NCBI GenBank assembly: GCA_030532905.1
Contig: JAUNKE010000002.1
Coordinates: 22,803 to 86,802, forward strand
DNA length: 64,000 nt
Reading direction: 5' to 3'
Source of the DNA: Peptostreptococcaceae bacterium
GTDB lineage: Bacteria; Bacillota; Clostridia; Peptostreptococcales; Filifactoraceae
The notes beneath the pieces were generated by a model. That model was given only the letters and a program-made list of their open reading frames with translations, had not been told where the DNA came from and did no database searches. This document shows, one piece after another, positions 30,273 to 42,370 of this stretch (its first letter is position 1; every line of letters begins with the position of its first letter). The translations under genes were made by a program, and so were the position numbers.

Positions 30273-30755
30273 TTAGAAATTGATTTCCGGTTTGCCGAAT
30301 ACTTTTATCTTCGCCATGCCGGTTTCAACATCGAAAAGCATCGTTCGTGCGTAGTTCGCACCGGTATCTTCCTTGAGCAAACGGACTCGCTCCATGGAAA
30401 GAATCTGTTTGACGGCTCGAGCATTTCGCTCTCCGATATTTCCCAATGCGGAAGTATCCGGAATGTCGAACATTTTTGCTCCGCCTGCAATTTTCGCCAC
30501 CATTCTCGATCGCATTGCACCGAAAGCTTCCATTTTTCTCAATGTTTCCCGTATTCCGCTATCCGCATATTTGAACAAGTTGTCGATATTTCCCTTCGGC
30601 GCTTCGGGCAACATGATATGCACCATCGCACCGAGCTTTATCATCGGGTCATAAAGACAAACGCCGATACACGAACCCAGTGCATAGGTTATAATCGTTC
30701 CCGTCGCTCTTGCCTGTTTCATATCGGCAATTCCGACGATATATTGTTTATTCAT
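30273..30755 (-). CDS. cheD: Chemoreceptor glutamine deamidase CheD
   Basis: 160 residues. Active-site Cys in YALGSCIGVCLYD (about 30), His in GAMVHIMLPEA (about 46) and Thr near the C terminus form the known triad. CheD deamidates chemoreceptors and binds CheC in the Bacillus-type adaptation system. The start overlaps the end of cheC by eight bases. Confidence 0.93.
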   Translation of the reverse strand: MNKQYIVGIADMKQARATGTIITYALGSCIGVCLYDPMIKLGAMVHIMLPEAPKGNIDNLFKYADSGIRETLRKMEAFGAMRSRMVAKIAGGAKMFDIPDTSALGNIGERNARAVKQILSMERVRLLKEDTGANYARTMLFDVETGMAKIKVFGKPEINF

Positions 30756-31374
30756 GCTTTATGCCCAGCTTTTGAAACAGATAGTTGAGCGATTGGAGAT
30801 CCGGAAGCAGAATCAGATTGCTTTCCATCTCCTGATCGTCCATCGAAAGCTTTCCTCCTATGGTCAGTATCTTGTTGGATTCATAGCCGTACTCAACCAT
30901 CGGCACCGCCAAAATGCCGCCGAGCATATTGATGGAAATTCCGGGTACGGATAATGTGGTTGAAATATTCGCAAGCGATGTAATCGCGTTCATATACGAT
31001 GAAATGATGATGTTGCCCACTTCGATGATTGCGGAAATTTCCATTTCGTTGAGCTGAAAGTAATTGTCGATTTTTTCCGCCAACACGCCTTGCAGCATCG
31101 TGTTCATCGCATCCAACTCCTGCGTGTAAAGCATGATGCCGTTGACTTCTCCTCCGATTCGGCTCATGACGCCGGCTACGATTTTTTCCGGCCCGCCCAT
31201 TTTGTTGATGGCTTCGTTGTAGCCGAGCACCGAAACTTCCGGCATGGACATAATGATTTTTTTGTTTAACATGGTCGAGAGAGCAGTTGCGGCATTGCCT
31301 GTCCCGATACTTCCTATCTCTCGTAGAACATCAAGCTCCATTGAATTCATTTGCTCATAATTTGTTATACTCAT
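30748..31374 (-). CDS. cheC: CheY-P phosphatase CheC
   Basis: 208 residues with two copies of the CheC active-site pattern: LDVLREIGSIGTGNAATALS (about 14-33) and EMEISAIIEVGNIIISSYMN (about 105-124), each with the Glu and Asn that dephosphorylate CheY-P. It partners with CheD, encoded directly after it. It lies one base after flgG. Confidence 0.92.
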   Translation of the reverse strand: MSITNYEQMNSMELDVLREIGSIGTGNAATALSTMLNKKIIMSMPEVSVLGYNEAINKMGGPEKIVAGVMSRIGGEVNGIMLYTQELDAMNTMLQGVLAEKIDNYFQLNEMEISAIIEVGNIIISSYMNAITSLANISTTLSVPGISINMLGGILAVPMVEYGYESNKILTIGGKLSMDDQEMESNLILLPDLQSLNYLFQKLGIKHE

Positions 31375-39028: not shown

Positions 39029-40282
39029 CTATCCTTTCCCTAACACCTCGGTAACTCGTATTCCGAAATTATCATGAACAACGACCACATCGCCTCTTGC
39101 GATGCAACGATTGTTCGCATAAACTTCCACCTGGTCGCCCGCCATCTTATCCAATACGATGAGCGATCCCTGCGTGATTTCCAAAATTTCCTTAATCGGT
39201 TTTTTGGTTCGTCCAATCTCAACCGATACCACCAACGGAACATCCATCAGCATATCCACATTTTCCTGCTTCGGTACACCGGTCAGCGTATCGTTGATTC
39301 GCTGCGTCTCTCTGACCTCGATTACTCGCGGCTCCAATGCGCCGCTTGGAACAAAGTTGGAGCTCGAAGCACTCTGCGGAGTCGAAGGTTGACTTACTGC
39401 GGCAGGTGTTGTATTTTCCACAACCGGTGCTGCATTCGCCGGAGTCTCCTGAGTCTCGCGAAGCATTTTCTCAATCTCTTCCTGACTGAGCATGCCGCCC
39501 GATGAAGCCGGTTCCGATATTTTCTCCGTCTGCTGCGCTCCGGCAAGCATCGCTTCGATTTCATCTTGACTGAGTGACTTGCTTTCATTTGACTCATTCA
39601 TCATCGCTTCAATCTGCTCCTGACTGAGCGATGCGGATTCGGATTTCGTCTCAACCGGTTGCGCCGGCATATCGTCTCCACCCATATTCATTTCCTGCAT
39701 AAAGGTTGCCACCATATCTTTGACCAAGTGAATCGGCATGACATTCATAAATTCACTTTTGAGCTTGCCCTCGATGGACAGGTCAAATTCAATTACTACA
39801 AAATTGGATGATACCTCGAAATGTTTTTCTTTAAAATCTTCGGCATCTTTTACTTCAAAGGTTGTCGGTGTCGAAATATTTATCATTCTCCCCATCAGTT
39901 CCGACAGCGCGGTGGATGATGCTCCCATCATCTGATTCATCACTTCGCGTACGGCGCTGAGAGATATTTCGTCCAGTTCAAAGTTTTCGTCTTCTATCTC
40001 TGTCCCCATCAACATCTCAAGGATGACTTTAATGTCTTCTCGCTTGAGAATCATAATGTTGTTTCCTGTAATCCCTTGCACATAATCAATCGTGACTGCG
40101 ATTGCAGGCTCCAGATTCTTAAACTCAAACTCTTCATAGGATTCTACCCTAACCCTCGGCACAGTGATATCCACCCTTGCATTCAGCATATTGGATACCG
40201 CCGTTGCAGACGAGCCCAGGCTGATATTGACTATCTCGCCTATCGCGTCAATCTCTATTGAGCTTAGAATTTCATGGTTCAT
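39029..40282 (-). CDS. fliY: Flagellar switch/CheY-P phosphatase FliY with three CheY-binding-like repeats
   Basis: 417 residues. The CheC-like domain (about 1-195) keeps both active sites in the D/S-x3-E-x2-N-x21/22-P form: D12-E16-N19-P41 and S109-E113-N116-P139. The C terminus (about 340-417) is a FliN/SpoA domain (KPIKEILEITQGSLIVLDKM). The linker holds three repeats, LSQEQIEAMM (219), LSQDEIEAML (237) and LSQEEIEKML (265), which resemble the CheY-P docking peptide seen once at the N terminus of FliM and of Bacillus FliY. The N terminus here lacks a clear copy. FliY sits in the C ring and dephosphorylates CheY-P. Confidence 0.93.
   Translation of the reverse strand: MNHEILSSIEIDAIGEIVNISLGSSATAVSNMLNARVDITVPRVRVESYEEFEFKNLEPAIAVTIDYVQGITGNNIMILKREDIKVILEMLMGTEIEDENFELDEISLSAVREVMNQMMGASSTALSELMGRMINISTPTTFEVKDAEDFKEKHFEVSSNFVVIEFDLSIEGKLKSEFMNVMPIHLVKDMVATFMQEMNMGGDDMPAQPVETKSESASLSQEQIEAMMNESNESKSLSQDEIEAMLAGAQQTEKISEPASSGGMLSQEEIEKMLRETQETPANAAPVVENTTPAAVSQPSTPQSASSSNFVPSGALEPRVIEVRETQRINDTLTGVPKQENVDMLMDVPLVVSVEIGRTKKPIKEILEITQGSLIVLDKMAGDQVEVYANNRCIARGDVVVVHDNFGIRVTEVLGKG
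39461..39628 (-). repeat. Triple LSQxxIExM peptide repeat coded in fliY
   Basis: Encodes FliY residues 219-274, with three copies of L-S-Q-(E/D)-(E/Q)-I-E-(A/K)-M at 219, 237 and 265. The spacing is irregular (18 then 28 residues), so it is a motif repeat rather than an exact DNA tandem. Confidence 0.85.
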
Positions 40283-40300: not shown

Positions 40301-40735
40301 TTACTTGCCGACTTCCAATGCTTTTTGCGCCATCAATTTCATCGTGTTGAAGACGGTGACATTCGCATCGTATGAGCGCGATGCGGACATCGCATCGATG
40401 GTCTCTTTGACGAGCTCGACATTGGGCATCATCACATATCCGTTTTCGTCGGCATCCGGATGCTCCGGATTATATACCGGCTTGAAATCTCTTTCATCTT
40501 CAACAATTTCTTCCACATGGACGCCGCCTTTTGCTTTTTGCATCTTGCTGCTGAGCACTTTTCTGAAAGTGTCCTGTTCATTGGGTCGAAGGACGACCAT
40601 CTTTCTTCGATAAGGTCCACCGCCCTCGGTTCGGGTGGTATCGATATTGGCGATGTTCTCCGAGATTATGTCCAATCGCTGTCTTTGTGCCGTCAATGCG
40701 GATGCACTGATATTTAGCGAGCTGAGAAATGACAT
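40301..40735 (-). CDS. flgC: Flagellar proximal rod protein FlgC (displaced)
   Basis: 144 residues. ISASALTAQRQRLDIISENI and IANIDTT near the start, PNVELVKETIDAMSASRSYD near the end are diagnostic for FlgC. It forms the proximal rod with FlgB. In nearly all fla/che operons it follows flgB directly; here flgB is followed by fliE, and flgC lies between cheY and fliY about 12 kb away. Confidence 0.93.
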   Translation of the reverse strand: MSFLSSLNISASALTAQRQRLDIISENIANIDTTRTEGGGPYRRKMVVLRPNEQDTFRKVLSSKMQKAKGGVHVEEIVEDERDFKPVYNPEHPDADENGYVMMPNVELVKETIDAMSASRSYDANVTVFNTMKLMAQKALEVGK

Positions 40736-40743
40736 AAGTCCTC

Positions 40744-41103
40744 CTATCCAAGCAATTGTTCTACGGTTTTAATAATACGATCCGGTTTGAACGGTTTTAC
40801 AATAAAGTCCTTTGCTCCGGATTTGATAGCGTCGATTACCATCGCCTCCTGTCCCATCGCGGAACACATTACGATTTGCGCCTGCGGATTTTGACTGCGA
40901 ATCGCTTTGAGCGCTTCCAAGCCGTCCATATTCGGCATCGTAATATCCATAATGACAAGATCCGGCTTCACTTCATTGTACATTTCCACCGCTTGAGCTC
41001 CGTCGCCCGCTTCATATAAATCCGAATATCCATTTTTTGTCAGCGTATCCTTTACCATCATTCTCATAAACGCCGCATCATCCACTACTAATATTTTTGC
41101 CAT
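40744..41103 (-). CDS. cheY: Chemotaxis response regulator CheY
   Basis: 119 residues, a single receiver domain. The acidic pair (VDD, about 8), phospho-acceptor Asp in PDLVIMDITMPNMDG (about 52), Thr/Ser in MCSAMGQ and Lys in DFIVKPF (about 104) are present. Phosphorylated CheY binds FliM/FliY to change rotation. It lies 12 bp after the fliN-like gene and 8 bp before flgC. Confidence 0.95.
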   Translation of the reverse strand: MAKILVVDDAAFMRMMVKDTLTKNGYSDLYEAGDGAQAVEMYNEVKPDLVIMDITMPNMDGLEALKAIRSQNPQAQIVMCSAMGQEAMVIDAIKSGAKDFIVKPFKPDRIIKTVEQLLG

Positions 41104-41115
41104 TTTTCCTCTCCT

Positions 41116-41349
41116 TTAGATTAACTCTCTTATTTTTATTCCTAAACTGTCATCTACCACGATAATATCTCCTCTTGCAATCAATCGGTTGTTCGCAAAT
41201 ATATCCACGGTGTCGCCTGCATATTTGTCGAGCACAACCAATGTTCCGTCGCCGAATTCGAGGATTTCTTCAATTGTACTTTTCACACTGCCGATTTCGA
41301 TGGACAGTTCGACCATCTCATCTAAAAATCCTATTTTTCTTTCCTTCAT
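41116..41349 (-). CDS. fliN: Short FliN-type switch protein (SpoA domain only)
   Basis: 77 residues consisting of the SpoA core: VELSIEIGSVKSTIEEILEF and VDIFANNRLIARGDIIVVDD. Close in pattern to the C-terminal domain of FliY encoded two genes on. FliN builds the base of the C ring. With FliM and FliY also present, the C ring probably has both FliN and FliY, as in some clostridia. Ten bases after fliM. Confidence 0.88.
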   Translation of the reverse strand: MKERKIGFLDEMVELSIEIGSVKSTIEEILEFGDGTLVVLDKYAGDTVDIFANNRLIARGDIIVVDDSLGIKIRELI

Positions 41350-41359
41350 TCATCCACCC

Positions 41360-42370
41360 CTACTGGTCTATCATTCGGTTGATTTTAACCGCCATATTCT
41401 TTTTGTGAACACCCAGTTTTCCGGTAAAACGCTCTTTCTCGTCGATGAATAAGAACACATCGGAGTCTTTCGGTCTGTTCAGATTGATTATGTCGCCCAC
41501 CTTGAGCTCATACGCATCGCCGAGCAATATTTTGGAGCTGCCCATGCGTACTTTTATTTCCAATGAGCTGCCGCGAAGCGCTTCCATAATCACCGCTTCC
41601 TCTTCGCTGTTTAAGCGTTGACCTTGACTTTCCTTCAACATCTTTTCGTATTCCGAGAAGATGCCCGACAAGGTGCTTCCCGGTATGCAGATGCTGAGTT
41701 TCCCCTGCGTCGCACCAAGCTGAATATTGATGACGACGATGACCACCGTCTCATCCGCTCCGATGAGCTGCACCATACTCGGATTTTTTTCCAGCCTTGT
41801 AAAATTAAAATCCACATTGGTGAATGTTCCCCAAGCATCTTTCAGATTTCTTACAATGTGCACATACAATGCTTCAAAGAGTGACAGTTCCACATCTGTA
41901 TATTTATACTGAAAAGGTACTTCCACATCGGAACCGTCGCCACCCCCGATCATCATGTCAATCATCGCCAATGTAAGTTGCGTTGAAACATTCATCAGGA
42001 TGGGTGAAGACTTCTTGTTGTCGATTAGTCCCACGCCCACTACCCCGAGCACGTCATTTTCGCCCAATGCATTTGAAAACTCATAATATCTTTGCTCCTC
42101 GATACCGATTACTTCGACATCGCAGCTCGTGCGAAAGATTCCGTTGAGTTTGGAAGACAACATTCTTGCGTAGTTGTCATACACATTGTCGAGCAATTTG
42201 AGTTTATCTCTTGTAAACTTCTTCGGACTGTAAAAATTATACTTCCGATATTCTTCCTGCTCGATGGGTTTTACTTCCTCAACCGGCGCCTGCTCCTGTG
42301 ATTCATCGCCACCGGCAAGCATTGAGTTTAACAGCATGTCTATCTGACTTTGGGACAATACTTCTGACAT
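41360..42370 (-). CDS. fliM: Flagellar motor switch protein FliM
   Basis: 336 residues. N-terminal CheY-P docking peptide EVLSQSQIDMLL (3-14), then a Glu-rich linker, the CheC-like middle domain (about 45-230) with GGGDGSDVEVP, and a C-terminal SpoA domain. It is the central C-ring protein that turns CheY-P binding into a change of rotation. Start after GGAGGTG. Confidence 0.95.
   Translation of the reverse strand: MSEVLSQSQIDMLLNSMLAGGDESQEQAPVEEVKPIEQEEYRKYNFYSPKKFTRDKLKLLDNVYDNYARMLSSKLNGIFRTSCDVEVIGIEEQRYYEFSNALGENDVLGVVGVGLIDNKKSSPILMNVSTQLTLAMIDMMIGGGDGSDVEVPFQYKYTDVELSLFEALYVHIVRNLKDAWGTFTNVDFNFTRLEKNPSMVQLIGADETVVIVVINIQLGATQGKLSICIPGSTLSGIFSEYEKMLKESQGQRLNSEEEAVIMEALRGSSLEIKVRMGSSKILLGDAYELKVGDIINLNRPKDSDVFLFIDEKERFTGKLGVHKKNMAVKINRMIDQ

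Follow-up and report, generated by a model that had tools for sequence, protein, structure and literature searches.

Candidate CheY-P docking peptides, relocated and multiplied, in the FliY linker of a clade of Clostridia

The FliY protein examined here carries three short peptides in its linker that are likely to be CheY-P docking helices of the FliM/FliY 'EIDALL' kind, relocated and multiplied within the protein. The EIDALL motif of FliM and FliY is a CheY-P site and serves as the first step of a two-step binding (PMC9126983), in which FliM captures CheY-P with a peptide tether and then with its middle domain (PMC9126983, PMC7355467). This kind of docking peptide is itself already known; what is new is the relocated, multi-copy arrangement in the linker, and linker-copy FliYs are a widespread trait of a gut-type clade of Clostridia, not of one genome. 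The DNA analysed (the window) is a stretch of 64,000 nt from a Peptostreptococcaceae bacterium (GCA_030532905.1, contig JAUNKE010000002.1, positions 22,803-86,802 of the forward strand), the draft genome of which is 2.48 Mb. The features of its fliY gene are as follows.

39029..40282, minus strand: fliY, 417 aa, with a CheC-like phosphatase domain (residues ~1-200), a disordered linker (~201-335) and a SpoA/FliN domain (~341-414)
39935..40237, minus strand: stretch of FliY bounded by its two phosphatase active-site E-x-x-N motifs (E16/N19 to E113/N116), from alignment
39599..39628, minus strand: docking-like peptide 1, LSQEQIEAMM (FliY residues 219-228), from motif match and matrix; AF2 helix 221-228
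39545..39574, minus strand: docking-like peptide 2, LSQDEIEAML (FliY residues 237-246), from motif match and matrix; AF2 helix 239-247
39461..39490, minus strand: docking-like peptide 3, LSQEEIEKML (FliY residues 265-274), from motif match and matrix; AF2 helix 267-275

The protein is assigned as FliY: it matches NCBIfam NF005995 at 306 bits (cut-off 218), contains two Pfam CheC matches and one to FliMN_C, and combines a CheC-like domain bearing two E-x-x-N sites with a C-terminal SpoA domain. In a Foldseek search with the AF2 model, the best PDB match was Thermotoga maritima FliY (4hyn; E 3.2e-19, 38% identity). Both E-x-x-N motifs are invariant in a 32-row alignment (A2), and this conservation suggests that the protein is a predicted CheY-P phosphatase. 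A plasmid search with the fliY gene gave no match, and a PDB sequence search with the linker returned only unrelated helical-protein noise.

The three linker peptides lie exactly where the first-pass annotation had placed them (39461-39628, between the CheC/CheX-like and SpoA domains), and their resemblance to known docking peptides is well above chance. Against a matrix trained only on N-terminal FliM and FliY copies (117 and 123 sequences), they score 19.2, 15.9 and 15.8, the top three segments of the whole protein; among 20,000 shuffles of the linker the maximum was 17.1, and none gave three segments at or above 15.8. With a FliM-only matrix the margin is smaller, the copies ranking first, second and fourth in FliY at 16.5, 12.4 and 11.0 against a 99th percentile of 9.4. 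Across 221 FliYs, real linkers contain 0.71 hits each and shuffled ones about 0.004. This above-chance match to the N-terminal copies is what is expected of a docking peptide of the FliM_N/FliY_N type. No other predicted ORF of the window apart from FliM matches even the loose motif, and no other protein of the same genome carries a matching linker. The earlier claim that FliY lacks the usual N-terminal copy also holds, since the N-terminal EIDALL feature, which marks the Bacillus sub-type only, was sought and is absent. A segment at residues 6-15 (LSSIEIDAIG; 40238-40267, minus strand) is EIDALL-like and scores 10.7-11.4, the higher value with the FliM-only matrix; we rejected LSSIEIDAI (residues 6-14) as an N-terminal docking copy and left it out of the copy count because it forms the first helix of the CheC domain and runs into the active-site E16.

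The gene belongs to a minus-strand flagellar and chemotaxis cluster that comprises motor genes, fliM, a short fliN-like ORF, cheY, a flgC-like ORF, fliY, fliO, fliP and more export genes, together with a fliA/whiG-type sigma factor, cheC and cheD/cheW-like ORFs, some of them assigned by profile search and the rest by reading. The neighbours that matter here are as follows.

41360..42370, minus strand: fliM, with a single N-terminal peptide LSQSQIDMLL (residues 5-14), from profile and motif match
41116..41349, minus strand: short SpoA-only FliN-like protein, 77 aa (TIGR02480, E 4.2e-21, 74.6 bits, below the cut-off of 84.05)
40744..41103, minus strand: cheY, a single receiver domain, between fliM and fliY (Pfam Response_reg, E 1.2e-33)
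40301..40735, minus strand: flgC-like (rod protein) ORF between cheY and fliY, also present in two congeners, from sequence reading
30748..31374, minus strand: cheC, a free CheY-P phosphatase (NF041093, E 1.5e-44, below the curated cut-off)

FliM thus keeps one docking peptide, beginning at residue 5, as had been noted at first reading.

A survey of copy number across FliY homologues, which the first-pass annotation had called for, shows that the arrangement is not a quirk of one genome. Among the 221 FliYs, a sample in which the window's kind is over-represented and a few loci are duplicates, 124 have the N-terminal peptide only, 76 have linker copies only (one to five), 21 have neither and none has both. 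Two congeners (L004 and L005) have two and three linker copies, the sister genus (L006, genome G003) has none, and the remaining FliYs of the family and order have a single copy, at the N terminus, with an empty linker. An alignment of the four nearest FliYs, used to scan the genomes of GTDB species, recovered 80 FliYs at about 45% full-length identity, mostly labelled Lachnospiraceae, Oscillospiraceae, Anaerotignum and relatives, and most of these carry one to five linker copies and no N-terminal one. Strict counts miss variants such as MSQEEIERMM. In a FliY tree built without the linker and the N terminus, the N-less FliYs to which that of the window belongs cluster as a single group (SH-aLRT 99). 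Five changes of the linker label are needed on this tree, and the copies must therefore have disappeared (or returned) repeatedly; G003 and Mediterraneibacter/Muricomes-like species are examples. A docking copy is found at neither place in the FliYs of L006, L090, L099, L108, L122 and L124, where the FliM peptide and CheA are kept. Loss of chemotaxis was rejected as a cause of zero-copy FliYs, as every zero-copy genome tested has CheA. The first-pass annotation had held that absence from close relatives without effect would count against docking; the absence was found, in the sister genus and in others. CheA and the FliM peptide are retained in these relatives, so chemotaxis in general can do without the copies.

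An AF2 run on a 32-sequence FliY alignment gave pLDDT values mostly above 90 in the CheC-like domain and mostly below 50 in the linker, with three separate helices at residues 221-228, 239-247 and 267-275, where pLDDT rises to about 65. The short helix on a disordered tether that characterizes docking peptides is thus present in the AF2 prediction. Each linker peptide would dock, as a short helix, on the alpha4-beta5-alpha5 face of CheY-P, and several CheY-P would be tethered per FliY subunit, between the phosphatase domain and the ring-forming SpoA domain. Such tethers would raise the CheY-P concentration at the C ring, which would feed the second, weaker site in the FliM middle domain as well as the phosphatase sites of FliY, so that the signal is buffered and its turnover sped. 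With three tethers and two phosphatase sites on each ring-anchored FliY, CheY-P occupancy near the switch would be higher and hydrolysis there faster; going by its domains and peptides, each motor subunit FliY could probably hold several CheY-P beside its own phosphatase.

The proposal made at first reading, that a tandem docking linker concentrates CheY-P next to the phosphatase sites, draws support from peptide similarity, selection on contact positions, isolated AF2 helices, retained phosphatase residues and the absence of FlhF and FlhG. CheY-P binding, its stoichiometry and any influence on switching behaviour are inferred. As to the accompanying idea of a changed response, a steeper curve is possible and not implied, because independent tethers raise local concentration without cooperativity. 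Counting against docking, FliY of T. maritima does not have a raised affinity for activated CheY (PMC7355467), and a generic amphipathic binding helix would show the same conservation. A sub-case of docking is that the copies bind CheY-P mainly to feed the FliY phosphatase, perhaps acting as a signal sink or speeding the signal up instead of serving as switch input. The copies flank the CheC-like domain with its two invariant E-x-x-N motifs, and FliM keeps its own docking peptide (dialect LSQSQIDALL) in nearly all linker-type genomes in which FliM was found; the genome also encodes a free CheC, however, and we regard this emphasis on the phosphatase as possible but somewhat doubtful.

How the motifs change between species bears most directly on function. 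Over 30 independent species pairs, amino-acid difference per site was 0.113 in the motifs, 0.373 in the spacers and 0.086 in the folded domains, at similar synonymous change, and the motif was slower than the spacer in 25 of 26 pairs (p about 8e-7). Since the relaxed pattern used for counting fixes several positions, conservation was measured in partner sequences that had not been chosen by the pattern. By this comparison of sequences, the linker motifs are under purifying selection, evolving at about one third of the spacer rate. In the E. coli complex, FliM residues L6, Q8, I11, D12 and L14 touch CheY (PMC3774744, Table 3), and these correspond to linker motif positions 1, 3, 6, 7 and 9. Q3 and I6 never changed (0/95 and 0/94), the acid at position 7 changed in 4/94 and S2 in 5/95, against 27/94 at the non-contact position 8; changes at positions 1, 9 and 10 are almost all exchanges of Leu and Met, and most positions flanking the motif changed in 30-55%. 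The CheY-contact positions are thus conserved as in a docking peptide, with the acid at position 7 kept, usually as Glu. Glu in fact replaces Asp there in 130 of 160 linker copies, Lys or Arg is common at position 8, and K119 of E. coli CheY, the partner of FliM D12, is Thr in the CheY of the window. With Glu at position 7 and Thr for K119, the CheY contacts must differ in detail from those of E. coli.

The same positions speak to the suggestion that something other than CheY is the partner of the linker helices, perhaps a C-ring or export protein or the SpoA or phosphatase domain of FliY itself, an EIDALL-like helix having been recruited for assembly and not for signalling. The linker dialect, SQEEIE(K/R/A), does differ from the FliM dialect of the same genomes, SQSQIDAL, and zero-copy lineages stay equipped for chemotaxis. 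Yet in the E. coli complex the FliM residues equivalent to the unchanging Q3 and I6 and to the conserved acid 7 touch CheY, and the genome holds no second protein with a matching linker; we consider a non-CheY partner unlikely.

Copies lie a median of 32 aa apart, separated by spacers rich in P, A, Q, S and G. They are 0.89 identical within a protein and 0.67 between proteins (permutation mean 0.66), and this greater likeness within proteins implies repeated tandem duplication. Concerted evolution of whole arrays is seen in L141, L112 and L079, where odd residues are shared among copies (LTPDEIAAMV three times, MSQEEMDALM three times and MSQEEIKAML twice, respectively). One could argue from the near-regular spacing, the near-identity within proteins and the drift of copy number from zero to five that repeat slippage in a low-complexity linker produced the copies incidentally and that they persist without any function. 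We think this very improbable, as recent duplication cannot explain conservation between species, and the threefold slower change of the motifs, with 25 of 26 pairs agreeing on the direction, refutes it unless an alignment artefact is responsible.

The distribution of FlhF and FlhG follows that of the N-terminal copy closely. FlhF and the FliY N-terminal copy are both present in 90 cases and both absent in 47, with one exception in each direction (G204 keeps the copy and has no FlhF; G258 has lost the copy and has FlhF). Among 80 other Clostridia with FliY, FlhF exceeded the cut-off in 75; it was absent from all 45 genomes tested with an N-less FliY, linker-copy carriers included, and gave no match at the family cut-off in G000-G003. 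No FlhG orthologue was found in G000-G003 or in eight further linker-type or N-less genomes, only MinD-like matches at about 33%. In B. subtilis FlhG has FliY as a partner, and in polar flagellates it interacts with the N terminus of FliM (PMC12826062), so the peptides might have been FlhG-docking sites serving flagellar number and placement, an idea that the lack of FlhF and FlhG in the genomes tested for them largely refutes, making FlhG an extremely improbable partner. CheY-P is the likeliest one, because FlhF and FlhG are missing from those genomes, 49 of 50 related genomes tested have CheA and cheY lies in the same cluster. FlhF loss as a proven cause of N-terminal copy loss was rejected, with two independent tree contrasts only and no significance. 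It is nonetheless tempting to speculate, and we do so with a little less than even confidence, that this clade turned a single FliY CheY-P tether into a tunable multivalent array of zero to five copies evolving fast by tandem duplication, the N-terminal copy possibly having been freed by loss of FlhF/FlhG, and that copy number could dial CheY-P occupancy and dephosphorylation at the switch.

Related systems share parts of this arrangement. Bacillus-type FliY is orthologous, with a CheC-like phosphatase, a SpoA domain and the same kind of docking peptide, but its peptide is single and N-terminal with none in the linker, and surveyed Clostridia of that type nearly always have FlhF. The FliM_N peptide is likewise a 10-residue helix with the same contact positions on a disordered tether; unlike the linker copies, it is single, N-terminal, of the dialect SQSQIDALL, and joined to the FliG-binding middle domain. 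T. maritima FliY shares the phosphatase-domain fold, whereas the matched PDB chains cover that domain only, and the sources consulted describe no tandem linker copies for this FliY. CheC and CheX phosphatases share the CheC-type E-x-x-N active-site motifs and are, in contrast, free proteins lacking a SpoA domain or docking linker. Our search of an open-access library found no published description of tandem docking peptides in a FliY linker. Linker-type FliYs contradict the general statement that, in all motile bacteria, the EIDALL motif used by FliY is N-terminal (PMC9126983), and they link motif position to the presence of FlhF/FlhG. How ultrasensitive switching arises from weak CheY-P binding is still debated, and the tether is normally fixed at a single copy per subunit. 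Orthologous FliYs with 0, 1, 2, 3, 4 and 5 copies offer a natural graded series, and because these are phosphatase-bearing switch proteins, models of avidity and local concentration become directly testable.

The 77-aa SpoA-only FliN-like protein encoded between fliM and cheY was found in the window's genus only, among 77 loci of at least 8 kb. In species that possess it, the C ring would contain a separate mini-FliN in addition to FliM and FliY.
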